The notes beneath the pieces were generated by a model. The model saw nothing but the letters and a program-made list of their open reading frames with translations. It searched no databases and was not told the origin of the DNA. A program made the position numbers and the translations under genes. DNA of 64,000 nt. It comes from Echinarachnius parma. Taxonomy: Eukaryota; Echinodermata; Echinoidea; Clypeasteroida; Echinarachniidae. Positions 4,931 to 61,439 of this stretch are shown here, one piece after another; within the stretch, counting starts at the first letter, position 1, and every line of letters starts with the position of its first letter. Location: positions 5,001-69,000 of the forward strand of contig JBAMJV010002050.1 of assembly GCA_037951105.1 (NCBI GenBank), read 5' to 3'.

Positions 4931-5062
4931 ACTGTATTATCTGCGAGGGGGATGGGGGCTCCAGGCTCAGCCCCCTTTATTATGTACACCAGTGTATGCT
5001 GCACGTTTTTCTTGTTTTCATTATGAATTATTTAGTTATATAACGTAAACCTGCTTAATTTT

Positions 5063-5859: not shown

Positions 5860-6545
5860 CAGCCGGGGTCCCGCTGCCAATACGTCATCCTAGCCATTGG
5901 CGCAGCTACGGGGGGGGGGGGGGGGGGGGGGGGGGGTGGCACGCCCCCACATAATCTGATGAAAAACAAAATTAATACAAACTTAAAGGGAAACGATCGG
6001 AAAGGTAAAGAAATGCAAAGAGCATGCGGCCAATCATCAGCATGATCAGCTGCACCGCGCTTCGTCACTGATCATAATACGCTCATTTAAATGAAACCCA
6101 CCTTCTTTCATCTTAAACAAAATACAATAAATCGGAGTCTTAATAACGCTCATCATGTCGCCCATCCTAGCCAATGGCGAAGCTACAGTGGGCACGGGGG
6201 CTTGTGCCCCCCCCCCCCCCCCCCACCCACACACACTTAGTTCATTAAACAGACAATATAACATAATAAGGGTAAACACAATCGGGAATATAAGGAAATT
6301 AACAGAGCGTATACGTGCCCCCAATCGGTGGACCACGCTACGTCACTGATCCTAGCTCCCCTAAAGCCATCCACCTTCCTTTCGTCTTTTTTGTAGAGGT
6401 AAATTATTGGAGTCTTCATAACACGCTCATCATGTCGCCCATGTCTGCCAGATATTAGAGTCTTCATAATGAGCTCATGTCGCACGTTCATGTCTCTTTT
6501 ACATAATAATTGGAGTCTTCATAAATTATTATAACGCACTAATGT
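5860..6545. repeat. Tandem ~290-bp repeat with G and C runs
   Basis: Two to three diverged copies of a unit containing 'CATCCTAGCCA(A/T)TGGCG(A/C)AGC', a G or C run (5910-5936, about 27 G; 6209-6223), 'CGTCACTGATC' and 'GGAGTCTTCATAA(C)'. The opening resembles a dispersed 'GTGGCGTAGC' repeat that recurs near 19418, 19829, 59338 and 59898. Confidence 0.65.
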
Positions 6546-33378: not shown

Positions 33379-33690
33379 TTAGGAGGCGGTACCGACGGCG
33401 AGTGGTATACCCCTGTAGGGGTTGTATGGTCCGTCACGGTTCGTCATCTTGATGCAATCGATGATGGGACACACGCTGACACACAGCGTGCAGCCCGTGC
33501 AGTCATCAGTGACATGGGGGAGATGCGTCTTGGGGTCAAAGGTGATTGCCTGGTAGCCTGAGTCGTTGCAGGTCATGTAGCACTTGCCGCAGTTAATACA
33601 CATCTCCTCGTCGATCAGCGCCACCACTTGGTCACTGTTGTCCAGTTGGCCGTACGACCCGATCCGGTCAAGTGCCTTTCCAATCACCTC
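33379..33690 (-). CDS. DPYD: DPYD exon 17: C-terminal ferredoxin domain
   Basis: Acceptor ATTTCAG, stop TAA at 33379-33381; residues 923-1025. '[11 protein letters not shown]' (953-963) and '[12 protein letters not shown]' (from 986) ligate two [4Fe-4S] clusters that pass electrons from FAD to FMN. The last residues, '[10 protein letters not shown]', are variable in the family. Confidence 0.95.
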
Positions 33691-36600
33691 CTGAAATGGG
33701 ATATAATAGAGAGAAGAAGAAGAAGAAAGACTGAGATTGAAGTAAGATTGAATTGACAGAAAATATTTAAAACAAGATAAAATTTTAAATATTTTAAATA
33801 TCTTAAACCTCTAACTGCTTGGTCTGAGAGGTTAACTTTTATGGGAAATAAACCACAAAACTACAACCCTACATATTTTACATACCCAGATCATAGGAAT
33901 GGATTTCTTGGCCTGTCTTGCAGGTCTCTGGGGAAGGGGGGAGGCTATTTGCTGGTTATCAACCGTTAGTTCAAAGGCTCACTTATTGCCAGCTTCAATG
34001 TTCATGTTTAATTTTGTAATTCAGAAAATGCAGTGAAAAATGGCATAATTGATATGTTATGTTACTTTATATTGTGATACATTAACCTGTTCCCGTGGAG
34101 ATTCTGAAATCCCCATTGACTTTGTACATAGCCCACTCGGTTCCCGTAGGCAAGGGGTTAAGTTACGACATCGTTTCATTATAATTACACATAAACTAAC
34201 CCTGATTGTGGGAATGGGTTTCTTAGGCTGTCTTGCTGGTCTCTGTGGGGCTGGTTGTTGGTCCTCTCCCGTCAGATCCAGGGCTCGCTTGTTGCCGGCT
34301 ACAAGCTTGATCCGTTCTTCCATGTAGGGCCCAAATGAGGGCAGGTGCTGTACAGCATGAAGAACAAATTAATCATTATAAGCCTTAGATAACGAAATAG
34401 GTAGGAAGAGCATGCACTCTCAAATCAGTGGGATTCTGAGTTAGAATCCAGAGCATTTTCTCTATTATTCATATGTTCCATTCTTCATCTTCTTTTATCT
34501 TCTTTTCGTTCATATTCTAAACCTTTTTTTTCTCTACTATCATTAAATTCCTCTCCAACATATGTTCCTTCTATTTCTCTGTATTATCACATCTGTAATT
34601 TATATTTTCCTATCCTCCATATTTTGATTCTTCTGTTCTCTCATTATCTCATCTGCCATCTATTCATTTCCCATCTGTAACACCCATCCTCACCTTGCCA
34701 ATGACATCGGCCACTCGGACCACTTTGCCTCTCTGGTGTCTGAAGGTAGGCGGGCTCTGTCCGTCCCAGTCTGCTAGCTCACCCAGACTGTCTAGGTACA
34801 GCAGGGCCTGTAGTCCCGTTACATAGTCCTCGATCAACGTAAAGTCCTGGTTCTGGACGGCACTGCACACCTGGGTAAAGAAAAGTGTAAAAATCAAATC
34901 AAGTCTGATTTTAAATCATATCTGTCTATCCCAGTCAGCTAGTTCATATCTGTTCTGAAGGTAGAGCAAGACCTGAAATCAAGTCTGTAATCAGTGTGAA
35001 GTCCTGGTTTGGGATAGCACTGCAGCTCGGCAGGCCAACAAAAAGATTCACATAAAGGTTTTCCCGCTGACCAAAATAAACTAAACAATTATACGTCATA
35101 TATTATGTTGTCAGCTAGTTTGTTAAGGCTATGGTGGTAGCAGGGCTTGTAGTCCTGTCACATAGTCCTCCGTCAATGTGAAGTCCTGGTTCTGGATGGC
35201 ACTGCAGATCTATTGCAAGCACAAACAAAATGTATGACTTCAGAAGAAACTACAAGTTTGATTAGACTACAGGTAGAGCAGGACCTGCAGACTGCAGTCA
35301 TTTCACTTTAGTCCTCGATCAATGTGAAGTCCTGGTTCTGGATTGCACTGCACACCTGGGGTTTAACTAAAGAATTCATTTTTTTAGTTTGCACTGAACC
35401 CAAGAAACTAGAATGCTTAATTAAATGACATAACATGTCTGCCTATCCCAGTTAGCTAGTTTGTCTAAGCACTGAAGGTAGAACAAAGCCTGAAGTTATT
35501 TCTCATAGTTATCATAGTTCTCATTCTGGATGGTACACAGAGTTGTTCTTATGTTACCTGTACTGCGCTAGCACCAGCATGCAGGAACTGCAGTGCCGCA
35601 TCAGGCAAGTCCATGCCTCCCGTCACTAAGATGGGCAAGCCAGGCAGGCTCTTTGTCCCACAATTCATCATAATAAGACAACAAGAAAGGCTAGAAGGTC
35701 GGGTAAATTGTTTGTGCTGCCATCCTACAATTCAACATGATAAGAAACCACAAAGGCTGTTCATACATGTATTGATTATTCCATTATTTACCTGTACTGC
35801 GCCTGTCCCACGCCTCCCGTCGCTAGGATGGGAAAGCCGGGCAAATTATTTGTGCTGCTTTTATACAGTATATGTGAACTTACACCACAAAACAACCTTT
35901 ATGTCGCTGTGGTAGTTTCTCTTTTATTAGCTAAAATATTCATATTTTGGTATTTCCTGAATAAGCATATTTTAATCTAGCTTCTGTAACATTTTGAGCA
36001 TCGGAACTCATGTTTAAATATTATTTTAGTCATCTAATAAATGAGATCTTATTACTGCGCTTGAATGGACACTGATCTTTTAAGTGGCCGGTTTCTTCCT
36101 TATTTTAAAAATGCTTCAGCCATATTCCAAATCTTTGGTGTTCATTTTGAGAGGGTTTGCTTAGTCCAAATATGACGAATGATAACCCATTTTAAAGGTA
36201 ATGACTTATATTTTAATGTTTTATGAAAAACAGCACAATCTGTTTTCCCTACTTATTGGTCGTTTTGTGGTGTAAGGTCACATATTGTAATCAGAAAATT
36301 ACAGAGAGAAATGATTAAAATTCTAACCTGTACTGCGCTAGCACCAGCATGCAGGAACTGCAGTGCTGCATCAGCAGAGTCCACGCCTCCCGTTGCTAGA
36401 ATGGGAAAGCCGGGCATGTTGTTTGCGATGGCAGACACCGCCTTCAGTGCGATTGGTCTGATTGCATTGCCAGACACTCCACCATATGTTGTGCGTTTGG
36501 CCTTTCCCACTGCCGGCCATGCACTGCTGTTTCCCTTCAGTCCCATTAGACCGGAAACCGTGTTGGTAGCAGTCACACCATCAGCTTTGCCTATAAACAT

Positions 36601-39600
36601 AAAATAGAGAGAATTTACATGAGCTTGCCTTACAGAGCTAAAATCTTTGAATGCCTAAGTACATAACATTTTAATTCAAAGAATGAAGCATTCATTTTAA
36701 AATTCTGCCATTCCAAAAGGAACTACCTAACTTTCTTGGGTCATACATGTATATGTCAGAAAGCCAAACTAATCATAGACAAAAGCTCAATTTGGATACA
36801 CATGCGGTTAGTCTTTATACTGCAGTACACAGTATTTTTGGTAGAGTCAGTTGATCTAGACAAATCAAATTCTTAACTTCAGAACCCTATTGCTAGGTTT
36901 TTCCTGTAAACTACTTTTAAAATCACTATAAGAAAGATTCTCATCATGAGTTGAATTAGCAAAATTACATGCATTATAATATAAATCTAATCAGACGGAT
37001 ACATGTGCGTGCCCAGTTAATGTCAAATAATAATCATTATACTGTACCTTCCTTTGCGGCACGAGCAATTGTCACGATGTTGGTCACATTGGGTGTCAGC
37101 TTGGCGAAGAATGGGATGTTGACAGCAGCTCGCACCCAGCGACAGATGTTTAGGACCATTTCTGGGTCCTGTCCACAGGCTAGACCCATCCCCTTCTCTC
37201 CCATGCCATGGGGGCATGACAGGTTGAGCTCCAGGGCATCAGCCCCAGCCGCCTGTAACATAACAAACAAGTTTGTTGAGATATCGCGAGAACGAAAATG
37301 GGACGGACGTACGTATGGACGGACTGAATGCCTCTGGCCACTTCGTTGGCGGAGGCATAACAAATATAAGTGGTAGAAAATGTTTATTAACATTCTTTCT
37401 TTTTTTAACAGGACAAATACACCTGCAAGGTTTAGCATCCAGGCTAGGTCTATGCTCCAGCCACCTGTAACATAACAACAAACATAAGTAGTAGAAAACG
37501 TTTATTAACATTCTTTCTTTCTTTTTTTAATGGGACAAATACACCTGCAAGGTTTAGCATCCAGGCTAGGTCTGTGCCCATCTCTCCCATGCCATGGGGG
37601 CATGCCAGGATCAGTTCCAGGGCATCAGCCCCAGCTGTCTGTAATTCAACAAATAAATGAATTAAACATGAAATGTATTTGGGCTAGGTTCATGTCCTTT
37701 TCCCCCATGCAATGAGGACATAGAAGGTCCCGCCTTAGCCCTCTGCCTCAGCCGCCCGTAATACATCACGAATATTAATATTAGTTTTAAACATTTTTTT
37801 CTCGAAAATAGAATTATAAAATCACTCATAAAAATCAAAACCCATTTTATTTTTCTGTTACAGTTAGCAAAACAAGGTCCAAGAAAAATGTTTAAAGGGG
37901 ACCACCAGGCAAAGAACAACACATTATTATATGTTTTGGTACCGTTTTGTGATATCAAATAGATACCCAACATTTTGCAAAGGGTTGTGTAATTCATAAA
38001 CAAAGCAATTAATTTCCACCATTTACGGAACCACTGCTATTTCCTGGTTCCATACGGGCCAACCATTTGCGAGTGCGCCAATGCTATTCACGCGTACGTT
38101 TGTAGACAATAGATTCCCGGGCGATTCGTTCGCTCTGCACACGTTGCAATTCACCGCACACATAGCAGTCTGCGTAATTCAGACCGCATGAACGCATGCT
38201 TTAGAATGGTGATGCGTTTCCAATTATTTTTGTTTCTTTCTGGAAACATATTTTTGTGAACTTGTTGATGGAATGGAATACTAAAGATGTTACCTTTCTT
38301 TAATAAGAATATTATTTTTGGGTGGTGGTACCCTTTAAGTTCCAGTTGTTTTGGTTGATCGTGACAAAGTTACTAAATCTCTTGAAGATATCCAGCTAAT
38401 GCTTCATATATTGACATCTTGGCCAGCTTGGTCCAATCATCCTTGTTTAAGCTGCACTTGATGCTGGCAATAACCATACGATCCGGGAAGTCACGCTTGA
38501 ACTCAGTGACGATCTGGCACCAGAAAGCCACGGTCATCGGAAACATACCCTTATCAACTCAGCACTTAATCATAACTCCCCGGGGAGCATACATTGACTT
38601 ACCTCCGACTCCTTAGCCAGCTTGGTCCAATCATCCTTGTTGAAGCTGCACATGATGCTGGCAATCACAATACGATCCGGGAAGTCCCGCTTGAGCTCAG
38701 TGACGATCTTGCACCAGTAAGCCGCCGTCTTCTCACTAATCAACTCAATGTTGAGGAACGATCCTTGCCCAGGCCCGTACAGGTGGCCCGACGTCGTTCC
38801 GCGCACAATGCGCGGCGAGACATTTGTGATTATGTCCTGAATGAACCAGTGGAAAAATTGATATGAATACGCATGGGAAATACAATTCAAGACCAATTCA
38901 GGCCTGTAGCAAGAATTTTTAAGGGGGGTGCATAAATTACAAAATCTGGCACCAATATGCCACTTTCTTCTCACTGATCAACTTGATGTTGAGGAACGAT
39001 CCCTGCCCAGGCCAGTAAAGGTGGCCGGATGTTGTACCACAAAACAATGCACGGTGACAGAAAATGATATAAATGAGCATGAGAAAGAACCAAGTTATAT
39101 TTGAATATGCCTAGGAGAGAAATACTGGTTAAATCAAAAATCTAGATGGGACCATACGAATTCTGGCAGTTTGTGGTGGCATATCTGTCATAATTTGCTA
39201 GATTTTCCAGTTATTAACTATTCAATGCGCTTTACCATCTCTCCAATGTAATCTAGCATGAAATTATGTATGTCTTTAATTTTCTCTCAAATATTCATAC
39301 TGTCTATGATAACCTCAAGTCTACTGGGAAACTATTCTACACTGTAGGGCTTGCAAAATGAAATACTACGTTCCCCTCTCTATAATTGGTTCTTGGCATC
39401 ATTAGCATTGATGAGTCTACCGTAAAACTCCGTGTATAAGACACACTTTTTTTCCGTCGGAAAATTTTCAAAGTGGGGGGGTGTGTTTTATACACAGGTA
39501 CAGCCAAAAAATAAAAAATAAAAAATTGGGGGAGGGGGGACACCCTGTAAACATGTTGAATGTGTATAACACATGGTTTAGGGTATGACAAGAACTTACT

Positions 39601-42600
39601 GTCAGTGGTAGCATTCAGCTAAATATACCTTTTTCTCACACACAAAATATTGGTTACAGATGTAAAAATTGCAAGTTTATTGAGCAGTAATACTGCTGCT
39701 AATGAATATTCATACATTCGTGAGCAGCAGTACTAATTAAATATGCAATTTTCTAACCAGTGGTTATAAATTTTGCTTATAATTAAAATTAGTTAGTAGT
39801 AAATTTAGAAAATTGCATTATATTTAGTGAGTATTGGTGCTCATGAATATTCATGAATATGAATATGAATATTTATGAGCACCAGTGTTACTGCTAAATA
39901 AATGTGCAATTTGTGTACTAACCACTATTTTTATGTGAGAAAATGATTGATGAATGCTACATTCAACATTAAGCTTTTGTCATGCCCTAAAAATAAATGT
40001 TTTTTTTTTTTTTTTTTTTTTTTTGCTGTGAAAGTTGGGGGTGCGTTTTATACACGAGTGCGTCTTATACACGGAGTTTTACGGTACTCTAGAACGATGA
40101 TGACAGTTTGCACTACATTGAAAGAAATCATTCTTACCTTATCAAGAACGTAAGTCTTCGTGACGACGAATCCCCAGCCAGCCTCGAAGGCGCGCCTGAT
40201 CATGGGTGCAGAGGTGGTGGGCGGGGCGCTGGCAAGGCCATAGGGGTTGGGGAACTTCAGTCCACATATCTCCACACTGGTGTCCACCAGGTCAATCGGG
40301 GTGTAGAACTTGGGCAGGGCTGGAGTGCTGGGTATGGGGATGCCATGTAAAGACTGCAGTTGTGAACAGACGGAGAGAAAGACAAGTTTCTATGAGGTAT
40401 GATACTGTTTTCATCTTCTTTCATTTGATTGTTGTCATCCTGATGCCATTTCAGAAGTACAAATCTGTTTGAGAAGACTATATCGGAATATAATGTAAGG
40501 ATAACATCAAAAGAATTGAAGAACTGTACAGTTTGCCTAAAGTATTAAGGAAAAGAATACAAAAAACAAGAATCAACCTGTTAAATAATTTAGTCCTCAT
40601 ATCTCCACACTAATGTCGACCTGGCCCCATATTCATAAACCATGCTAGCTTAGTTCCTCGCTAAGTGTACTTTAAATGTGCAGTTTATTTAGCAACAAAC
40701 AGTTTTCCTAGTCCCCAACTAGGGTCAACTGGGTAAGCCTTAGGTACCCTCTAAGTTAACCTTAGTTAGCAACTAAAAGATCTTGTGTATAATTCTTAGC
40801 CACGTCATCCAAAATAGACTTAGCAAGGAACTAAGCTAGTGGGCTTTCATAAATATGGGCCCAGGTCGAAAGGGGTGTAGAACTTGGGCAGGGCAGGGCT
40901 GGGGTGCTGGGTATGGGTATACCATGTAGAGACTGCAGTTGTGAACAGCAAATAAAAAGAAACATTATACACATTCTATAACGTATATGACAATACAAAT
41001 TGCTAATATCAACATGAAGAGGTTACACTATTCAAGTCATTCAATTGACCTCAGCCAAGATATATATCAGCCAGTTAAAAATAACAGTTGTCACTAAACT
41101 TCACTTATTGTTACTCACTTGAAGGTACTTGTGTATGAACCATGCAGCCGTCTTGCCATCATTGACCGACTCCACGGTGGTCTGGGCTACACCCCCCAGG
41201 TCGCCCCCACAGAAAGCCCACGGCTCGCTCATCTGCATCGACTCAGCAGACACCTCAGGGAGCCCCCACGTGTTGAACTTCATGGGAGCCAGTGCCTTCT
41301 TGACTGTAGAGAAGTTTTTAAAAATGAGATACATGAAATACCAACTTTGGTTACTGTGATCACAAACATTATCATGTATATATCAATATAATTATAGGAG
41401 CACATGAAATGTGTTTGTACATCTACCGTTAATGTCCATAGTATACTTGTGGTTAACAGAATGTTTTACTGAATTTAAAGGGACTTTCAGTTTTGGTTTA
41501 GAGGGTGCTTCAAGAAAGGGTTTAGAGGTTTAGAGGTTGCATCAAGAAAGGTAATACAAAACTATGTGTACAATTTGAAAAATTTCAAAATTTCAAAAAC
41601 AGAATCAGATTTGTTTTATCAAAATCACTTCAGAAATGGCTTAATATCCATAAATATATCTGATTGGAATAAATGTTGGGAACCAAATTTTATTCACTCA
41701 TTAATTAGAAAATGTTCGACAAGAACTGTACTTTCCCATCGCGGATGCTGCAAAAGTATCTTTGAAACTAACCATCTTCATTGAGCAGGGTAGAGCCGAA
41801 AGCGGAGATGATGTAATCAGTCTTGAGCCTTATCATCTGCTCCTCATCTTCAATCCACTTCCCGTCATCATCCTGCTCTGTACGGCATAGTTCCAGACCA
41901 GCTACATGGCCCCCTTTCAGTATCACCTTACGCGGGGCCAAGAACGGCATGAATTCACACCTCTCCTCCCTAGCAACATCCATCTATGCAAAAATTAAGA
42001 AAAAATCATTCAAATCATACAATTCACATCATTATAACAAATTTATATGGTAAATTCACTATATTTCATGATTTCTAGACATGGTTTTGTAATTGGATTA
42101 GTTTGTGGAGCCTAGATGGGCATGAATTCACAACTTTGCTCATTAATAGCAACATCTATTTATGCAATAAAGAAAGAAAAAAACATTCAAATCATACAAG
42201 TCACAAGTACATGTATAACAGATTAATTCACTATATTTCATGTTTTCAACATCAGTAAAGGTTGGAATATATCCACTTATTCAGATATATGTAAAGAGCT
42301 TTTTTGACTGTTTTGACTGTACCATCAACTTAAAATACAATATATTATTTGTATGTTCACAATGACTTTTTATGCCTCCGCCAACGAAGTGGCCGGAGGC
42401 ATTATGTTTTCGGGTTGTCCGTCCGTCCGTACGTACGTCCGTCCGTACGTACGTACGTCCCGTTTTCGTTCTCGCGATATCTCAAGAACTGGTTGACGGA
42501 TCAATTTCAAACTTAGTATGAGTGTACATATTGGGGTGGCGATGATCTGATTAGATTTTAGGGGTCATGGAGTAAAGGTCAAGGTCACAGGACACAATAC

Positions 42601-45600
42601 ATATGCAAAAATGCCTTGTTCTCGCGATATCTCAAGAACCAGTTGAGGGATCAAAGTTCTTCAAACTTGGTATGAGTGTACATTTTGGGGTGGCGATGAT
42701 CTGATTAGATTTTGGGGTTCATAAGGTCAAAGGTCAAGGTCGCAGGACACAATACATGTGTAAAAATGCCTCATTCTTGCGATATCTCAAGAACCGATTA
42801 ACAGATCAATTTCTAACTTGGTATGAATGTACATATGGGGTAGCAATGATATGATTAGAATTGAGGGGTCATGAGGTCAAAGGTCAAGGTCACAGGACTA
42901 AATATATATGCCAAAATGGCTTGTAATGGCAAAATTTCAAGAACTGAATGTCAGATTCAAACTCGGTACCTGAATGTATCATAAAGAGTCAACGTAGCCA
43001 TAAAATGTTGGGGTCATGAGATTGAGGTCAAGGTCACAGGACTCATACATGCAAAAAAGCTTGTAATGGCAAAATATCAAGAACTAAATGTAAGATTTCA
43101 ATCAAACTTGGTACCTGAATGTTTCTTAGGGAGCCAATGTAGCCATCAAAGTTTGGGGTCATATGGTCAAGGTCACAGGATTAAAAATGTATGAAAAATA
43201 TTTTTACAAAATTAATTCAGTGCATGTTATTTGGGCTTGATATTAAAATCGCGTGATAGCGGAGGCATAATTTTCGACTGCGCGCAGTCGAAGATCCATC
43301 TAGTTTATCTTATGATGGCAATGTCAGATAATTCATGCTTCAGCATTAAAAATAATACCAATAAGATTCATCATCAAATAATATAGGGGCCGGAGTAAGC
43401 TATAAAATAAAATATTATATTCATGAAAATTACTGGTATCGTAAAAATATGTGTATGATTATAAACTTTAATGCATACTGCATGTAGTATGTTATTGTTA
43501 GTACCAGTACTTTTTCTTGTGACTCGTAAACATCCTGATGTAATCAATCACACGCAGCAGCTTACATCAAATTATATTTCTGATAACTTATTCCAGAAAA
43601 TACAAGCATGACAGTTCATATCAATATTTGTTGGTATCTCATATGAATAATAATATATATGACAAATTTATATAGCGCTTAAAGTGATGCCTGTAAAGTG
43701 TCAGATATTGCACAAAATGACATTTGAGACTTCAATCCTACATCAATATCATTGTAAAATATAATTGAAAGATTTGTGAAAGTTTGAAAGAAAACGAACA
43801 GTGTTTACCTAGTGAAAATAACGAATATTGAGTTAATATTTTATCACCGAATACTGATGGCCTTCCGTAGATTTGTCGCAGTAATGTTCGTCCGTTTGAT
43901 CTCGACGATATCCGCACACGTGTGTATACATGTACAGACGGTACGGAATTCAAATTCATGGAATTTGCGCACGCATGATCGGCTCAATTACATGTCTGGT
44001 CGGGAAGATTTCCCACGCGCGCTGGCTGGACGTATTCAGCTGAGGCAATTGTACTTTTTATCAAAAGCCTTGATCAACGCTTTACTTTCAATGATAATTA
44101 TCTTCATACTAAAGGGACATTTGAAAAAATCCAAATCAGAAGAAGTTTCAATAAAATATTATGGATATGATCCCTTGTATTGTAATTAATAACAAACATT
44201 ACTAATGGGAGTACACAGTACACACTTAGCAATTTTCACTACTAACCTCTTCTGGCACGGCTCTAATGGTGGTGAAACCCTTCCTAAAGACGATGTAGAC
44301 GCGTTTGGCCCCGCAGCGGAGAGCTGAGGTGGCGCAATCAAAAGCGGTGTCGCCCGCACCAAGTACGATCACGTTACCCCGCAGGGTAGGCAGGCTGGAT
44401 TTACAGGAACACATACCTGGGGGCGAGAGAATGTGTGATGAGGTTTCTTTTTCTTTTACCAAAAGGACTACAATATAACTTCTTAAAAAATAATGTTGAA
44501 TTACATAGCGAAGAAAAACTGATTACATGATATATAGGGCCTACATTTTCGTTCCTTTTCTATTTTTATTACAAAAGTGTTATTATAGTAGATAAGCTGC
44601 AGTTTTCAGCATTTTGTTGCATCATTGTTTTGTTATGACATTGAATGCACATCCATTTTGGTACCCAGACAATGCATGAGTTGGCAGATGAAAAATGAAC
44701 ACCAACCATGCATTGTCTATGTATTGCCTACGACACACAACTGAATGTAAATGTATGCATGAGTCAACATACCTGCTTTGCTGGCCTTGGCCACTTTGGG
44801 CAGGAAATCCTTGGATGTAAAGAAGCCCTGGTCCTCGGTGAGATCCTGGAACATGGGAGCACGCTTGGCCTCGGGTAGACCAAGACCAACAAACACAGCA
44901 TCATGGCCAGAACTCTTCAAGGATTCCAGGCTCATTCCATTTATCCCCAGACCCTTGTTGAGTTCCACCTGTTGGGAAAGACAGGATAAAGTCAGAATCA
45001 AAGGAATGACTTCAATCATAATTGTAAAAATAAACAATATCTGGTTCAGTATAATGATAATAATACTAATAATATTGAAATATATACGTATATGGCCTAA
45101 GCATTGATTATCAATAACCAGTTTTGATTGTGAATTATTTGACTGAACCCCTTGCCTGCAGGAACCAGGTGGGCTATGAACAAAGTCTATGGGAATTGCA
45201 GAATCTCAAAGGGAACAAGTTAATAATAAACCCAAACGATTTAAATGACCCTACAGAAGATGGTATATTACCTTCACACCAAGATCTTTCATTTGGTCGA
45301 CCTCGAACGAAACAACTTCATAGGGCAGACGGAATTGGGGGATCTCGGCAGAGCTAAGACCTCCGATGAAAGATTCCTTCTCATAGACTGTGAGGGCAGT
45401 ATAACCCAGGCGAGCCAGGAAGGTGGCGCAGCTGATACTGGCAGGGCCGCAGCCAATCAGAGCCACCTTGGATTGGTAGCTGAAATTCAGAAATATGCAC
45501 AAAAAAGTACAATATGTATGATTGCTATGAAGACATGGCAATCATTCAGAGCCACTTTTGATAGGTAGCTGGAGCAGTAATCATAATAATTATAACAATT

Positions 45601-48600
45601 CTATATTCTTAGATCACAGACACATCTGTCAGCAACCCTTGGGACACACAACTATCATTATTACCCCTGGTCATCTGGGCACGTTACAAAACCACACAAT
45701 TATTTTTAGCACCTTCTCAGCTCCCCGGTGAGCATATTAGCAGCGAACAACCATATGTGACCAGCTATGGCAAAACCCGGCACTTGTCGGTAATTCATGT
45801 TTTGAAGAAATGGGCATTTTAAGTTCACACAATGTGTGTAAAAGATTTATGATTGTAACATTGAAACAATCATATCTTCGCAAATTATTGACAAAGCATC
45901 AAATGAAAGCTTGTGATCAGGCCTTTTTAATGATATGAAAATAGATACATTTTGAGTTTTACCGACAAGTGCAGGGTTTTGCTATAGCTGGTCACATATT
46001 GTACCATCAGGCTTAGAAACACAACTCAGAGTCAGGGGGCAGAAGATTTGGGTGTTTTTTTTACAAACAATAAATAATTTAGAAAACATTTGTTACCAGC
46101 TATTACATCATGAAATCAGGATGTTCAAATCTTACCTTTCAGGGAGATCGTCAGGGGGCGGAAGGTTCGGGTCTCTGATCTGAGGGATCTTCATTTCTTT
46201 GAATATCTGTTAATATTTTAAGGTGCACAAAAAGAGAACAATGAAGGTGTATTTTAAATTGACTTGAATGAAATACTGATTGTTTCAATCATTTCTTATC
46301 TGGATTCATCCGATCTACAATAATTTCAACAACAAATACAAAACGATACATTCCAGCAATAATATAACATTATAAGTAAAGTTCTTTAATGTAACATAAC
46401 ATAACATAACATAACGTAACATATCAAAGAAAAAAGCCAAATTAAACAATACTTTCATAACTCAGAAGGTAAAAGAGGGGGAATACATAACTAAGACTAG
46501 TAACATAAGTGTAATCCCTGAAGTGAATTTGTGATTGAATCATTGAAATCTTCTATTCTTTGAACTAAGACCAATTCCTTCTTCATTATTATAGTCAGCC
46601 AGCTATACACGGCACAATATGCTTACTTCTGAATATGGTTTCAAGTGTTTGTTCAATGACATCAAATATCAAAACAGCATAGTTAAATGTATTTGATTTG
46701 ATTTATTAAACCATTAAAAACACAAGAATATATACAGTTTTACAGCAATGATATTACAAATGGTATAAATACAGTTCTGTAAAGTTGACTAAGTACAATG
46801 AATGTATGGCAAAGAGCATGAACTAAAGGGATCTTCATTGAACTATCAAAATCAAACAGGACAAAGTACACATTGTTGCATTATTGCACATCAATGCTTT
46901 GTAGTGCCATGAATAGGAGGTCTAACTATGGAGGAGGCACGTCCTAAACTAGACTCAGTGCTCACGCGCGAATGAACAGACAGCCGCTCGACGTCGACAA
47001 GCTAGAAAATGATTTTAAAAATCACATAGTGGAGGGCCGTTTTCCGAAATATGTTCACGCCATAATAGGCTCTATGCGTTATCAAAAATTACCTTTAAAA
47101 AAAATAAATAAAAAAAAAAAAAAAAGTTAGTGACCCCCTCCTCTCCAATCAGTCTAACCACTGATTTCACTGGCATAAGTAATATCATAATTATTACAGT
47201 ACTTACACAAGGTTATTTGTCATGGGTGAAAAAGCACATGAAAGCAGACAGTGCAATTCATTTGTATGTCATGCCTCATTTAACAACCTGTAAACACATC
47301 AATGCCAAACCGTGTCGGTAGAAAAAGGAATGCAAATAAAAAGCAGGCGAATGCTATCTTTTATTGCCGTATTTGTGCACATTTACTGCCATCATGAAAT
47401 AGATGAAAACAGATAATCTGTGTGTCAATATATTAATGACTTGTATATATTACAGAACAAATATTATCAAGAGTGTTGCAAGCATTAATTACATGAAGAG
47501 CATATTTAAATGGACACTTACAACAATTGCAAAAGTTTTATGAAATGGGGCCCTATAGGCTCATGATTAAGTGCCCATGCAGGCCACAGACTGCTGCAGT
47601 TCTCTGATTAATATTAACCGGTTCAGGACTGTTTGATTTTGCTATAACAGTAATCTCCATAGACCCAAGCTGGAGTATTTCGGGGACCAAATGAATCCTG
47701 AATGGGTTAAAGCAGCGTTTCTCAACCTTTTTTAACCCGAGGCCCACTTTGGCTCCTACAAATTTTTGGAGGCCCACCTTACAAGAACATATATGGAAAA
47801 ATGAAAAAATGACAATAAAATAACAATAAGAAAACTGTGTGGTATCTATTTGTCAGTTGCAATGCAAAAAAAACTTTCTACACACCTTCAATGGGACACT
47901 TGAGGTTATGGGAAATTAGAAAATCAAGTCGTGGTTTAGTGATGGGGGACAGGTTCACACGCAAAGTGGCATTCAGAGTCAGTGGCGTAATGAGCAAAAA
48001 CCTTTTTTTTTTTTTTTTTTTGGGGGGGGTGCTAAACCACCGCATATTGCGAAGGAGCAAAGCGACTGAGCGGGGGGAGGGGGAGCGGGGGGAGGGGGAG
48101 GGTGTGGGAGGGGGTGTCCCCCCTCCCACGGTAGGGAGCTTTTGCATTTTTGGACTTGAAACTGTGCAATCTGGTGCATACCTAGATAGGAAATTCTGAC
48201 TTGGCAACGCGTCAAATATGCACCCCCAAAAATATTCGCAAAGTGACATTATACAGTTCGAACAGTGCATCAAAAGCCACACTATACAACAACATGAACA
48301 TTGTATTCTAGACGTAGACAAGACCGATTCTCGAGGGAGCGAAACAATTACCGAGAGGGGGAAGGGTGATGGGCCCGATCGTAGGTTGGTGTCCGCCCGT
48401 GCACGGTAAGGGGGATTTTGCAATATTTAACTTGAAATCATGCTATCTGGTGCATACTTGGGAAGGAAATTTGACTTGACATGAAGCAAAATCTTATTGC
48501 ACATCGAATAAAATCAACCAGGACGTGGACTAGCTACCACAGAATTTTAAAAATTTCATTTTGGCCGACCTCGCGGCCCACCAGTGGGCCGCGGCCCACC

Positions 48601-51600
48601 GGTTGAGAAACGCTGGGTTAAAGGACCCCTCTTCAGCTTGCATCCTCCGACGCACACCATTCCGCATGTCAGTTTAAAATTTGTGAATGTTTCCAATTTC
48701 AGATTATGAATGAGCCATCTCGTACATTGGGATGAATATCGGCGTTATCGGTTGCATCTGTGCGCAGATATCGCAGCCATATAGGAACGATCTACCCATC
48801 AAGGACGAGAGCTATTTTAAGGCAAAATTGATCATTGTTTTCCTCTACAAATTGGCAACTCCTAAATGTTGTCGACCTATTAATGACATAAAAATAGGTG
48901 GAAAATATTTAGTTATTACAATTTAAGACAAATATGAGGTGACTTTGCCGCAAAGTTGCCAATTTGAACGCCAATATCTGTTCATTAAAAAATAACTAAA
49001 GCAGGTAGAGTAACAAAATAGGGCTCTAAAAATAGAGATATTTATACTCTTTCTTCTTGTACACTTCACACAACTAGTCTTCTTCTTGTTAAAGTGTAGG
49101 ACTACCAAACCACAAATATGTGGGCCTTAGGCACTGATGGGTTACTCACCTCGGTGGCAAACTGCTGCAGTCCTCCGATGTTAATGGGGCCCTCTTCTGA
49201 TGCATACAGGTTGCATCCTCCCACACACAGATCACTGGTGGGGCACACCATTCCACACGTCAGCCCCAGAGGGTTGTCAGAGAATATGGCCTTCGATGCT
49301 CCATAATAGTTCTATTTTACACAAATGAAAGGCATGAGATTAATATTTAGCCGAGATTTTTGGTGTATATATTTATACAGGCATATTTACTTCAAAAACA
49401 GGGAAAGCAAAAATGGCCTTTGATGGACATAATAATTCTACACAAATGAAAGGATCAAGGTGACAGATTTGGGGGGAAAGGGGCGTCTTCACATCTTTTT
49501 TCAAGAGATTCTGGGCTGTTCCCCCGTCATGTCAACAAAAGGGACAGTACCTTACTAAGATATATGCATTGTTATAGTTGGTATTGTTATTTTAAAGAGA
49601 TATTTCGAGTTTAAGGTCAAACTGAAGTTTAGTAACCCAAACCTGCACCATTACATTACAAACTAATAGTTATAAAACTCCACCATGCTCGAAAGATTAC
49701 CCTTAATAATCCTCACCTTGTTAGCAATGCTGGTGATGAAGGCCTTGACATTACCCTTAATAATCCTCACCTTGTTAGCAATGCTGGTGATGAAGGCCTT
49801 GACATTACCCTTAATAATCCTCACCTTGTTAGCAATGCTGGTGATGAAGGCCTTGACATTACCCTTAATAATCCTCACCTTGTTAGCAATGCTGGTGATG
49901 AAGGCCTTGACATTACCCTTAATAATCCTCACCTTGTTAGCAATGCTGGTGATGAAGGCCTTGACATTACCCTTAATAATCCTCACCTTGTTAGCAATGC
50001 TGGTGATGAAGGCCTTGACATTACCCTTAATAATCCTCACCTTGTTAGCAATGCTGGTGATGAAGGCTTACCCTTAATAATCCTCACCTTGTTAGCAATG
50101 CTGGTGATGAAGGCCTTGACATTACCCTTAATAATCCTCACCTTGTTAGCAATGCTGGTGATGAAGGCCTTGACATTACCCTTAATAATCCTCACCTTGT
50201 TAGCAATGCTGGTGATGAAGGCTTACCCTTAGTAATCCTCACCTTGTTAGCAATGCTGGTGATGAAGGCCTTGACATTACCCTTAATAATCCTCACCTTG
50301 TTAGCAATGCTGGTGATGAAGGCCTTGACATTACCCTTAATAATCCTCACCTTGTTAGCAATGCTGGTGATGAAGGCTTACCCTTAATAATCCTCACCTT
50401 GTTAGCAATGCTGGTGATGAAGGCCTTGACATTACCCTTAATAATCCTCACCTTGTTAGCAATGCTGGTGATGAAGGCCTTGACATTACCCTTAATAATC
50501 CTCACCTTGTTAGCAATGCTGGTGATGAAGGCCTTGACATTACCCTCAGTAATCCTCACCTTGTTAGCAATGCTGGTGATGAAGGCCTTGACATTACCCT
50601 TAGTAATCCTCACCTTGTTAGCAATGCTGGTGATGAAGGCCTTGACATTACCCTTAGTAATCCTCACCTTGTTAGCAATGCTGGTGATGAAGGCCTTGAC
50701 ATCAAGTTGGGTTGGACAACTCTTTTGGCACGGGGCATCCGCACATTTGAGACATCGGGCTGCCTCCTTCAGAGCAGCACGCTCGCTCAACGTTGTGTGT
50801 TTCACATCATCAAAATTGTTATCCAGATCACCACACGTCTATAAAAGATAGTTAGTTTGTAAGCATTACTTAACCCGTTCACTTCAAGATTCAGAAATCC
50901 CATGGATAGACTTGTACACAACCCACCCGGTTCCCGTAAGCAACAGACTAATAATAATACAATATCAATTATGCTAACATATATATTTAAGATATCTTAC
51001 TGCCTCTTTCAAAGAAGCACACTCGCACAATGCATAATATATGTTTTATATCATCAAAATTGTTAGATCAGCATACTGTACATTTATAATTTAGGATAGT
51101 TTGTAACTTAAAGAATGATAATATCATTTAGCCATTTAATTACAATTTTTAATATTACCTACACTAGATAACAGTAGGATATTAAAACTAATGGCAAAAA
51201 GTTAAGGTATTATGCTTCACTCAGTTTATTACACCATTAAAGATCCCCACACTTATAATAATAATAATAACCCTAAACAAAATTAAAATTAAAAATAAAA
51301 CAGGGCAACCATAATTAAACTGATATTATAATTTCAATAATAAATAATTCTCTACTGTCACTGGCAATTCAAACCAACTACATGTATACATGTACATTGC
51401 CATTGTTCATAATAACAACAGCTGTTATTTTCTCACAGAAGAGCACACTAAACACCTGTGATTACTTTTGTATGGTTTGCATGCTCAATTGTGCAGCTGT
51501 AAATTAAAGGGGAGCTAAATGCTAGCAATTTTCGCTTACTGGAACTGATTTAAGAGCATTATTCCTGTTACTCCTAGTCGTTTATTACTTCTTTGGTGTC

Positions 51601-54600
51601 GCTGTTATATAATATCAGGGTTTTAATTGGAATCTAAATTGGAAGGCAGACAGTGTTCAGGCACATCTATGCTATAAATAGTCATACTATGGTATGACCA
51701 TTTACACACGGTACACACCAGACACACAATATCATCTGAGCAAACGCTGTATACAAATGCAGCTGTGACTGTTGTTTGACTACCGGCACCTGTGCATTGT
51801 CAATGCAATGCAGAGCGCATAGTACAGTATTGTAATATCTGTTTGAGTGTGTTCAGGCAACTTTTTTATGAGGTATTCCCATCTTAGGGGGTTTGGTGTT
51901 TCTTTAAAATGCATTTGTTTTCATGGAAAAACACTTTTATTTTGATTCTTCATGAAAGATTTAAAAAGTCAGTCAGTCAAATTTACACTCCTTTGATGGA
52001 CCTGCGATGGACGACATTCATATGCCACATCATACACATAGATTGCTCTTCACATGGTGTAAAAGTAGATTTTAGATTTGTCAATATATCAAAACTTACT
52101 AGAATTCTTGCAGGGGAAACAATTTATTTTCAAGAGCTTCTTTTCAAGCCAGCCTCTATCAAAGAACTTCATGAAGCACTCTGAAGCAGGACATGACCCG
52201 GGGGGGGGGGGGGGTGGGTGGGGGAACTCGAATTATTTTTTGACGGGGGTGTGCCTCACGGAACTCTGAAATGGGGGTCTTACTCTTAAGAGCTGACTAC
52301 AAGCTCAAAATATAGGGTCTTTGGAGCTACAAAAACCCTGAAACGGGAGTTAAGGGGTCTGAGGAGCAGACTAAAACTACAAAATACATGGACTTGGAGC
52401 TACCAAAGACCTACCAAGTCATTCCAGGGGTCTATGGAGCGGCAATTTTTGAAAATCGGAAATCTTGAGAGGGTGTCTCGTTTGGGTCACACCTCCACGT
52501 CGATAGTGAAAAGGTGCATCGTTTGAAGCACACCTCCAGGTCGATAGTGAAACTCTGCATGATACATAAACCGCTATATACTCACCATTTATGGCAAAAG
52601 AAAAGAAGAGTCATATGAGAGGATTCGAACCCATATAAACAAGTGTTGAAGTCGACAGCGTGACCAGTAGGCCACGTACACCACTGATGGTCAGTATGGT
52701 CTCATTGTAATTATAACCCTCAAACTCATTCAAACCCTAATCCTAGTGACGTTGCGTGATGTCACGATATGAATATTCATTATCGACTTGGAGCCGAGGT
52801 AGACGTTGACGTGGAGGTGTGACCCAAACGACGTATCCATCTTGAGAGCGGCAATCGGGTGTGAAAACATGGGTCTTGTAAGCGGCACATACCCATCTTA
52901 CATTATACATGAGTGCCCCCCCCACCCCCCCCCCCCCCCCCCCCCGGGGACATGACATGTTACTCATACCTGTAGGTACATTCAAATACTGTACTATGCG
53001 CTCTGCATTACATTGATAATGCACAAGTGCCGACAGTCGAACGACCGTCACCAATACATTTAGTATACACCCTTTGCTCCAATGATATTGCGTGTCAGAC
53101 GTGTAAATGGTCATACCATCGTATGACCAATGTTTACAAAGTAGATGTGGACATGACTACATCCCCTAAGCCTCATGGGCCGGTATTCTACTAAATTAGT
53201 CTGGCCTAAAGTGTTAACTAAGTGTCCACTAACCTCCGGCTAAGTTGATAACTTTAGTCCGGACTAAAATGTTGTATTCTGGTAGGCCTGTTTATGACTA
53301 AAGTGATAAGTTTGCAGGTTTAACTAATCTGAGGTGTGGACTAAAGTGTGGATTAGTTAGTCCAAGGTTATGAACTTAGTCCAGCCTAAGTTGATAAATT
53401 TAGTAGAATATCATGCATGGTGTTTTTTAAGTGGTTTATTTATTGCATCCAAACCTTGAGTACCCTACTAAACAACCCAATTATACTTACAGCGCAAGAC
53501 TTGGGCCCATTTCGCTTCCAGTACTTTCTGTTGTCCTTGGTGGTCTTGGTCTGGACTAGCTTCGCATGGGACTGGACCTTGGGATTGAGAGCTAGCAGAT
53601 TCTGCACAAAATAACAAGCAACCAAAAATACATTTGTAGTAACAGTTCAAATTGTTGAGTGAATAAAAATTGTAAATCTGGGTGTGAAATCGCTGGAACG
53701 ACATGGATGTTCATATTTACTTGTATGCCAAAATTTTACCATTTCATATTTTCTGCTAAACACAAGTTTGACTCCGAATGTTTGCATTACATGTAAACGA
53801 AACTGATGAATAATGTATGTAAATGTTACAATACAAGCCATTTCAGGTCTTACTAATTAGTAATTAGCGCGAACAAACTATTTACTGCAAACAAATTTCC
53901 CATTCACATGTACTGGTTCGCATGAAATTGTAATTACCGCGAACAAGCATGAACAGGATTTACTGCGAACAAATTTGTTTGCAGTATATAATTAACCCTA
54001 AAAGGGCCGGGCTATTTGAGGTCTTCAGCAGGCCGGGGGGGGCCATTATGGCCCCCCCCTAAGATCTCGGCCGCGGAGCGGCCGATCGCCGTAAAATTGT
54101 GCACGCATGATAAGTGAAGTGTATAGAATACAATGGTAATTTAGAAAATTTTGAAAAATGCATTAATTTGCATATTTATGGTAATTTATGCAAATAAGTC
54201 ATTAAATTCATATTTTTACCCATAAATCATATATTCTTCATAATTAAACTCTGGTTTTCACTACATATATTCATCAGAGCATTTGTAATGATAATACGAC
54301 AAAAATTTTTGGAAGAGCCCGGTTCTTCCTTATGTTTTCTATTGTTTTGTTAATTTCTTATGTATTTCTTTGTTTTTTTAAACTAATGTATTTTATTGTT
54401 TTTGTTGTTTATTTTATTTCTAACTATAATTTAACTATTTTGAATCCCCAAACCAACATATAACATGTAAACAACACCAAATAACTAATGATACACCTCA
54501 TTTTACGAAAATTGATATTTCCATTATGTTTTGTACACAAATCACGAAATTGAGCGATTTTCGGGCTGACATGCATAGACAAAAGGTCACGTGACTTTGT

Positions 54601-60500: not shown

Positions 60501-60503
60501 TTC

Positions 60504-61439
60504 TGCTGGCAGGCTCGGAGGGTGGATGCCCAAGAGATGCTAGCAGCCCCCAGGCTGCTGGCAGGCTCGGAGGGTGGATGCCCAAGAGATGCTAGCAGCC
60601 CCCAGGCTGCTGGCAGGCTCGGAGGGTGGATGCCCAAGAGATGCTAGCAGCCCCCAGGCTGCTGGCAGGCTCGGAGGGTGGATGCCCAAGAGATGCTAGC
60701 AGCCCCCAGGCTGCTGGCAGGCTCGGAGGGTGGATGCCCAAGAGATGCTAGCAGCCCCCAGGCTGCTGGCAGGCTCGGAGGGTGGATGCCCAAGAGATGC
60801 TAGCAGCCCCCAGGCTGCTGGCAGGCTCGGAGGGTGGATGCCCAAGAGATGCTAGCAGCCCCCAGGCTGCTGGCATGCTCGGAGGGGTGATGCCCAAGAG
60901 ATGCTAGCAGCCCCCAGGCTGCTGGCAGGCTCGGAGGGTGGATGCCCAAGAGATGCTAGCAGCCCCCAGGCTGCTGGCAGGCTCGGAGGGTGGATGCCCA
61001 AGAGATGCTAGCAGCCCCCAGGCTGCTGGCAGGCTCGGAGGGTGGATGCCCAAGAGATGCTAGCAGCCCCCAGGCTGCTGGCAGGCTCGGAGGGTGGATG
61101 CCCAAGAGATGCTAGCAGCCCCCAGGCTGCTGGCAGGCTCGGAGGGTGGATGCCCAAGAGATGCTAGCAGCCCCCAGGCTGCTGGCAGGCTCGGAGGGTG
61201 GATGCCCAAGAGATGCTAGCAGCCCCCAGGCTGCTGGCAGGCTCGGAGGGTGGATGCCCAAGAGATGCTAGCAGCCCCCAGGCTGCTGGCAGGCTCGGAG
61301 GGTGGATGCCCAAGAGATGCTAGCAGCCCCCAGGCTGCTGGCAGGCTCGGAGGGTGGATGCCCAAGAGATGCTAGCAGCCCCCAGGCTGCTGGCAGGCTC
61401 GGAGGGTGGATGCCCAAGAGATGCTAGCAGCCCCCAGGT
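60504..61439. repeat. 52-bp minisatellite, exactly 18 units
   Basis: The unit starts TGCTGGCAGGCTCGGAGGGT and ends GCTAGCAGCCCCCAGGC. It is nearly identical in all copies; one variant unit is at 60868-60919 (GGCATGCTCGGAGGGGTGAT). The unit length is not a multiple of three and no frame spans it, so it is non-coding. Confidence 0.97.

Follow-up and report, generated by a model that had tools for sequence, protein, structure and literature searches.

A donor-spanning minisatellite behind exon 3 of the dihydropyrimidine dehydrogenase gene of Echinarachnius parma, and other exon-tail donor arrays in the same genome

How can a gene work when the 5' splice site of one of its exons is followed, straight away, by 18 further copies of itself, and which of these donors is taken? 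The question is raised by a stretch of 64,000 nucleotides from Echinarachnius parma (positions 5,001 to 69,000, forward strand, of contig JBAMJV010002050.1 in GCA_037951105.1), which we call "the window"; it has no gaps and lies on contig C2049 of an assembly of 1.2 Gb in 14,790 contigs. The gene on its minus strand is dihydropyrimidine dehydrogenase (DPYD), as the sequence-only reading of this DNA had proposed together with the boundary of exon 3; homology, gt-ag borders and an open frame bear out both. Our model, from which exon 1 is absent and whose numbering starts at exon 2, holds 16 coding exons from exon 2 to the stop, all with gt-ag borders, in a single open frame of 1012 residues. Exon 2, the first coding exon found, spans 53491..53601 (minus strand, like all gene features below); exon 3 (50668..50838) has 171 nt, phase 0 and the acceptor tcttttatag; exon 4 (49150..49311) starts in phase 0 with NYYGASK; intron 4 and exons 5-17 occupy 33379..49149, with the frame intact to TAA. 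The introns flanking exon 3 measure 2652 nt (intron 2) and 1356 nt (intron 3). Among the homologues listed (the best 120 of 1054 matches), the closest is that of Strongylocentrotus purpuratus (88.8% over 1012 residues), followed by Diadema antillarum (86.7%), with three sea stars and one brittle star at about 79% identity. The gene is apparently intact and single-copy: the intact frame, together with a genome search with the first 363 model residues in which all seven matches fell at this locus and no second DPYD contig was found, rules out a pseudogene or a redundant copy.

Exon 3 ends in ...AACAAG|GTGAGG at 50668/50667, and directly behind it come 18 copies of a unit made of the start of the intron and the tail of the exon, a claim of the sequence-only reading that is upheld by the letters themselves and by TRF (19.0 copies, exon 3's own tail being counted in). 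The first G of the exon's GTGAGG, at 50667, opens donor 1, the presumably functional one from the sequence and the homologue alignment, and the minisatellite in intron 3 extends from there to its 3' limit at 49696 (49696..50667), with a last intron part of 21 bases after the 18 copies. Fifteen units measure 54 bp (21 intron and 33 exon bases) and three measure 47 bp (20 + 27); the donors after donor 1 stand at 50613, 50559, 50505, 50451, 50397, 50350 and so on down to 49716. Every unit carries a usable-looking donor, and 19/19 donors, counting donor 1, read AAG|GTGAGG. The statement that each unit keeps the complete exon edge and donor is thus right for the donor in 18/18 units and for the full exon edge in 15/18, the three 47-bp units having 27 of the 33 exonic bases. 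On the minus strand of the window, the 9-mer AAG|GTGAGG is present 20 times, and the plus strand has none; the donor array is, therefore, not a product of chance. Units are further organized in a higher-order repeat of 155 bp (54+54+47). They differ by two substitutions (ACT/ATT and AAG/GAG), both in the intron part and both changing an amino acid in the read-through frame, and by one 7-bp deletion shared by three units, which is part of the 155-bp block. As far as the sequence tells, the array is real. The ends of the duplicated segment, read directly from the sequence, have only "AT" in common, an overlap that would suit a microhomology-sized first duplication.

An array that adjoins the end of a coding exon and includes the exon's own donor is of a known kind, represented in the available parts of PMC2630376 and PMC5954066 by the 31-bp variable number tandem repeat (VNTR) of human CBS and the 25-bp VNTR of human ABCA7. 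The CBS array lies, by its name c.1444_1467+7(16_21), over an exon-intron junction and, like the DPYD array, repeats the tail of a coding exon (24 nt in CBS) with the start of the intron (7 nt), 16 to 21 times, in the gene of a metabolic enzyme; unlike in DPYD, its unit of 31 bp is not a multiple of three, and its polymorphism is shown in people, whereas the DPYD array is seen in one assembly (excerpts of PMC2630376). The ABCA7 array, of about 12 to 427 units, lies at the donor of exon 18 and resembles that of DPYD in that its first GT is the exon's own donor; the donor of the next unit is sometimes used, giving a transcript that retains one VNTR unit (2 +/- 1%, constant over array length and subject to decay), and long alleles raise exon 19 skipping 3.2-fold (PMC5954066, in the text available). 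It differs from DPYD by its intron-only unit of 25 bp, which breaks the frame, and its long alleles act through exon 19 skipping rather than through decoy donors, as far as the same excerpts go. In the open-licence literature searched, outside which most subscription papers fall, we found neither a description of a DPYD array nor a genome-wide collection of such exon-tail arrays from an echinoderm; this agrees with the earlier remark that no case in DPYD is described, the kind itself being known from CBS and ABCA7.

Is DPYD alone in this genome? We scanned the assembly for three perfect donor-like words spaced by 39-69 bases. With a loose pattern, the matches numbered 873 + 524, versus 504 + 542 for the same pattern read backward. 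Its places, listed as far as contig C1023, showed arrays on at least 14 contigs, of which 13 were fetched (C879, outside these 13, has the unit of C186); among the matches listed, 7/13 fetched arrays start at an exon end (C438, C218, C592, C1023, C236, C378 and C859), and the others, as far as visible, do not (C863, C647, C927, C186, C451, C1002). Five strict scans of the whole genome, in which a unit recurring on several contigs was counted as one array, found a coding-exon tail with its donor in 18/32 distinct arrays (18/27 with flanks read), five arrays having been called "not exon" from their low-complexity or dispersed units (C2823, C3161, C5718, C2533 and the C5256/C8184/C10260/C13514 family). 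By pattern, exon-tail arrays numbered 1/2 for CAGGTAAGT (22 matches vs 62 backward), 3/6 for AAGGTAAGT (25 vs 38), 3/10 for AAGGTGAGK (43 vs 76), 7/7 for CAGGTGAGT (43 vs 2) and 4/7 for GAGGTRAGT (86 vs 93), flanks being read for the arrays of donor patterns and for none of those of backward patterns. Donor patterns are thus not consistently commoner than backward ones, and clearly so for CAGGTGAGT only; the genome is, therefore, simply rich in arrays, and the striking feature is how many of the donor-bearing arrays lie at true exon ends. Adding C592 and C236, which the loose scan gave, to the 18 of the strict scans, the genome holds at least 20 exon-tail donor arrays, DPYD included. Behind each of these 20 exons stand from three to about thirty donors that are nearly identical and spaced by some tens of bases, and the first match was the exon's own donor in 7/7 exon-tail arrays for which this was computed. 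At C3535 and C3492, the further copies begin some hundreds of bases into the intron and not at the exon edge, the first further donor lying at +284 and +398, respectively.

The identity of the 19 exons other than DPYD exon 3 was clear from a match in eight cases, weak in two, a hint in one and given by the open frame only in eight. Clear matches were obtained for a carboxylesterase (C438, Pfam E 5e-13), dynein-2 light intermediate chain (C218, PDB E 4e-6), transaldolase (C592, Pfam 7e-11), an LDL-receptor class B protein (C1023, Pfam 3e-11), CAND1 (C236, PDB 3e-9), a carboxypeptidase (C3492, Pfam 2e-11), a cupin-like protein (C5539, Pfam 1e-6) and ECT2 (C9615, PDB 5e-7); the weak ones, both below cutoff, are CUB-like (C378, Pfam 0.02) and oxysterol-binding (C3535, 2.8e-4), and the hint is to Myt1 kinase (C9980, PDB 0.14). 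An open frame ending at the donor defines the exons of C859, C2769, C8328, C2171, C4833, C9633, C4421 and C8428. Homology searches run on six of these eight gave no convincing match for C859 (no Pfam), C4833, C2171, C8328 and C8428, and for C2769 a ribosomal L9-like match of 0.009, below cutoff, with nothing in a further search; we take the C2171 exon to be RNF121-like.

How, then, should the DPYD array be understood? In our opinion, it is very probably a mostly neutral minisatellite, which arose by tandem duplication across the junction and is ignored as exon definition takes the first donor. A small tandem duplication over the exon 3/intron 3 junction would have given birth to it, and slippage or unequal exchange, partly in blocks of 155 bp, would have made it grow. 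Splicing would pick, of all the donors, the one closest to the acceptor of the exon itself ("exon definition", or exon-centric proximity), and the gene would work because that donor is the one taken at exon 3; the copies past donor 1 would lie outside the defined exon and leave with the intron. The array would, in this respect, be one of the 20 or more of its class, within a wider habit of junction-spanning duplication that leaves decayed exon halves behind.

What is known of the choice between identical donors speaks largely for such a rule. According to the available sections of PMC9225289, in minigenes whose flanking introns measure 365 nt, two strong and identical donors set 52 nt apart lead to exclusive use of the upstream one, and natural human pairs of near-equal strength prefer the upstream donor in 60% of events; the choice leans upstream when both flanking introns exceed 250 nt and downstream when both are short. 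The DPYD donors are 54 nt apart, and both flanking introns of exon 3 are longer than this 250-nt figure for exon definition (PMC9225289, same sections). On the other hand, about 60% of events go downstream once the strength filter is removed, and an older intron-centric rule quoted in these sections would favour the most downstream donor. One has to keep in mind, therefore, that with natural pairs at 60% and with the intron-centric rule, some leakage to decoys at DPYD is possible. Nor need such arrays be cost-free: in the ABCA7 excerpts (PMC5954066), long alleles raise skipping, and the 2% figure is that of transcripts subject to decay.

The decoys would have contrasting effects on the protein. 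The stretch 50398..50667 is open and in frame with exon 3, and translation confirms the arithmetic of the sequence-only reading for the first five decoys: use of donors 2-6 would add 18, 36, 54, 72 or 90 residues, in frame and with no stop. It had also been said that the 47-bp units break the frame further out, and this too proved right; the first of them lies at 50351..50397, and each of donors 7-19 would bring in a premature stop, after 216 model residues for donor 7 and after 200 for donors 8-19. The open frame is, in sum, kept by 5/18 decoy donors and lost by 13/18.

With a premature stop behind 13 of the 19 donors, the array might be imagined to lower or tune DPYD output, either through degraded mRNAs from donors 7-19 or through exon skipping caused by a long array, in both cases scaling with array length. 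The CBS 31-bp VNTR is reportedly linked to reduced enzyme activity, as the title of a 2001 paper by Lievers has it, and this may be counted in favour of the idea. So may the skipping of the next exon, which long ABCA7 alleles raise; yet the decoy-donor isoform of ABCA7 stays constant over VNTR length (both from the accessible portion of PMC5954066), and the minigenes with two identical strong donors ignore the downstream one (PMC9225289, in part). We consider this role of the array improbable.

The alternative put forward by the sequence-only reading was an enzyme of variable length, donors 2-6 being used to a useful extent and adding 18-90 residues to the N-terminal Fe-S domain. The identity of all 19 donors, the 54-bp step, a multiple of three, and the in-frame, stop-free extensions of donors 2-6 are in its favour. 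The protein family points the other way: none of the 120 listed homologues (the best 120 of 1054 matches) has an indel at the exon 3/4 junction, and exactly 28 residues separate two fixed alignment columns around it in the window protein and in all 120. The junction thus appears to be a fixed point of the DPYD family, with no sign, at 0/120 indels, of the tolerance to insertion expected of protein-diversifying tandem donors. Likewise, no protein bearing the array repeat was found among the 120 listed of 1054 matches, although the query words came from a region including the repeat, and such a protein should have ranked high (the proteome of this species may lie outside the database); the repeated motif occurred twice in none of the listed homologues, and many had no match to it at all. 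Within the array, both substitutions change an amino acid and 3/18 units break the frame, which also tells against the idea.

The sister arrays weigh in the same direction. The step from the first donor to the next is a multiple of three in only 2/20 cases, DPYD (54) and C9615 (54), and the C9615 extension contains a stop, which leaves DPYD as the sole array of the 20 with a first extension that stays in frame and has no stop. In the other 18/20 (one-sided p 0.018 for this excess, a post hoc test on which we do not build), the use of a decoy would usually ruin the protein, and frame keeping is not a feature of this class of arrays; the simplest reading is that their decoys are hardly used. At DPYD, the first extension being in frame and open, leakage would give protein instead of degraded mRNA. 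Adding that the ABCA7 decoy isoform amounts to about 2% (PMC5954066, as excerpted), we hold a length-variable DPYD to be highly improbable. The evidence (0/120 homologue indels, 18/20 steps not divisible by three, and the minigenes in the available sections of PMC9225289) favours the first-donor rule, which the sequence-only reading had named as the other option and under which donor 1 would be the one in use.

It is extremely improbable, in our view, that the assembler simply expanded a short repeat. The evidence is, admittedly, that of an assembly, and one in 14,790 contigs, but the internal variants (ACT/ATT, AAG/GAG, the 7-bp deletion three times) and the 155-bp higher-order pattern are those of real arrays, the assembly contains many other arrays with variants of their own, and one exon-tail array recurs with equal step lengths on C1023 and C5052, which could be an assembly duplicate. 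That the array arrived beside exon 3 as the cargo of a mobile element can be dismissed: a fragment of a high-copy interspersed (MITE-like) repeat, found by genome search at 49607..49695, does start exactly at the array end and has at least 41 further matches (40 of 3383 candidates scored), but 7/7 other copies fetched lack the array and continue with the element's own interior, which rejects a Helitron- or MITE-borne minisatellite, and the array unit was found nowhere else in the genome.

We also considered intron gain by tandem genomic duplication, the "AGGT" model described in the available part of PMC3443670, in which a segment containing AG|GT is duplicated in tandem, as it is here. In that model, the segment is exonic and a new intron results, whereas the DPYD segment lies across a junction that was already there, without sign of a new intron (PMC3443670, in part); the candidate failed on the 21/54 unit bases that match nothing in the coding sequences of the 120 homologues listed.

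Returning to the mostly neutral minisatellite, the other DPYD exons carry traces of similar events. Comparing the exons with the window, leaving out the exons themselves, the array matches and a few weaker translated matches, we obtained 12 decayed copies in the orientation of the gene and, at E 1e-3, none on the opposite strand of the window. The eight copies that lie upstream all stem from heads (of exons 3, 9, 11 in two pieces, 12, 13, and 15 twice), and the four that lie downstream all stem from tails (of exons 12 and 16 once each and of exon 14 twice); this split gives a Fisher p of 0.002, or 0.012 with each exon and side taken once (6 vs 3), for a test devised after the copies were seen and on matches that are not all independent. 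Among the heads are those of exon 3 (50985..51065, 75% identity), exon 11 with its acceptor (40861..40932) and exon 12 (38944..39057); among the tails are those of exon 12 (38418..38538, 90%), exon 14 with CAG|GT (35558..35655) and exon 16 (33896..33998). Of the upstream copies, those of exons 11 and 13 and one of exon 15 retain the AG, which that of exon 9 has lost, the exon 3 copy being too altered to judge; of the downstream copies, one of exon 14 and that of exon 16 retain the GT. Such a pattern would be expected if junction duplications were tolerated, the copies outside the innermost acceptor-donor pair decaying freely.

A human counterpart of the decayed heads may be seen in CBS c.844_845ins68, a 68-bp duplication spanning a junction that still gives normal mRNA, one of its sites being strongly preferred (available text of PMC2630376). 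It differs from the DPYD array in being a single duplication, at the intron 7/exon 8 junction, with no array; we read it as lying on the acceptor side, whereas the text of PMC2630376, in the part available, says donor. Elsewhere in the genome, similar copies of exon heads are visible by eye upstream of the exons of C2769 and C2171, and an Isy1 exon (Pfam 8e-18), a chance find, has a downstream copy of its tail.

We suggest, tentatively and with more doubt than conviction, that junction-spanning duplication is a running process in this lineage, hidden by exon definition: the innermost pair of sites would always be used, heads would pile up upstream and tails downstream, and arrays would then turn into fossils. 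If so, all stages would be on view within the single gene DPYD, and the genome would contain dozens to hundreds of natural experiments on how identical splice sites compete. What makes the DPYD array valuable is its sister arrays and the tests that they allow. The choice between identical 5' splice sites has so far been studied in designed two-site minigenes; here, natural sets exist at 20 exons, offering replicates for the exon-centric proximity rule, for the error rate per extra donor and for a possible cost. They are also a warning for annotators, as predicted genes may have exons that run on into an array of this kind.

We also compared the number of exon-tail arrays with that expected under random birth. 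Twenty 10-kb pieces of three contigs, 192.5 kb after removal of N, contained five arrays (at least 8 copies, period of at least 20), one of which we take to be zinc-finger coding sequence, and one array with a period of 39-69 and at least 3 copies; the three contigs were picked from the matches of an earlier genome search, and the sample is not a random one. Assuming 200,000 donors, random birth would give donor arrays in the order of 5, a figure uncertain by a factor of ten or more, versus 18 found, from which we conclude only that exon-tail donor arrays are "not clearly depleted". At the sampled density, arrays covering a donor are to be expected now and then, and the argument for neutrality leans on this rough density from a single 192.5-kb sample.

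The acceptor side was scanned as well. The matches to TTTTNCAGG are dominated by one satellite, with at least three arrays among the matches listed, and TTTTDCAGG gave 8 distinct units on 11 contigs, flanks being read for 7/8 units (8 pieces). The acceptor arrays are too few for rates to be compared. We dropped the prediction that they would be rarer than donor arrays, as CBS c.844_845ins68 and the exon-centric rule imply that both sides would be tolerated. Among the seven TTTTDCAGG units with flanks read, one is an acceptor-side exon array: on C5006, its exon, without a Pfam match, is similar to phosphoglycolate/pyridoxal phosphatases (NCBIfam 4e-12, below cutoff; PDB E 1.2e-11).

The introns of DPYD, the minus-strand dihydropyrimidine dehydrogenase gene, hold 12 decayed partial copies of its own exons, located at window positions 33896-42159 and 50985-51065. 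Their placement follows the exon end from which they derive: copies of exon heads lie upstream of the parent exon, and copies of exon tails lie downstream of it.

Across the 20 tandem arrays of exon tail and 5' splice donor found in this genome, that of DPYD included, the first donor-to-donor distance is divisible by three in only two (one-sided p = 0.018, post hoc). This scarcity (2/20) could hint at selection against in-frame arrays. One gene segment is present on both contigs C1023 and C5052, with identical step lengths in its donor array and, in addition, an intronic array of equal extent on both; the two copies represent either two haplotypes or an assembly duplicate.

An acceptor-side counterpart to the donor arrays, its unit made of the intron end and the exon head, precedes a phosphoglycolate/pyridoxal phosphatase-like exon (L062, C5006:17350-17950), and a chance find on the opposite strand of C495 (L060, 35400-36000) is an Isy1-like exon whose tail and donor region are present once more downstream of it.

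The window contains a second tandem array, nearly perfect, at 60503-61438 (unit of 52 bp, 18.0 copies, 99% matches), whose left edge directly adjoins sequence that, judged by eye, resembles a repeat also present some 210 bases farther upstream. A high-copy MITE-like repeat occupies 49607-49695, adjoining the end of the DPYD array, and recurs in the seven further copies examined (L002-L008); several copies start near TTAAAGGGATAGTT. On the minus strand, 669-2917 carries reading frames that we take to resemble a LINE-type reverse transcriptase and endonuclease. Finally, eight runs of G or C, each of 27-49 bases (e.g., at 5910, 7787, 18539, 52916, 57789, 57961, 58738, and 59923), are, in our impression, many for 64 kb.
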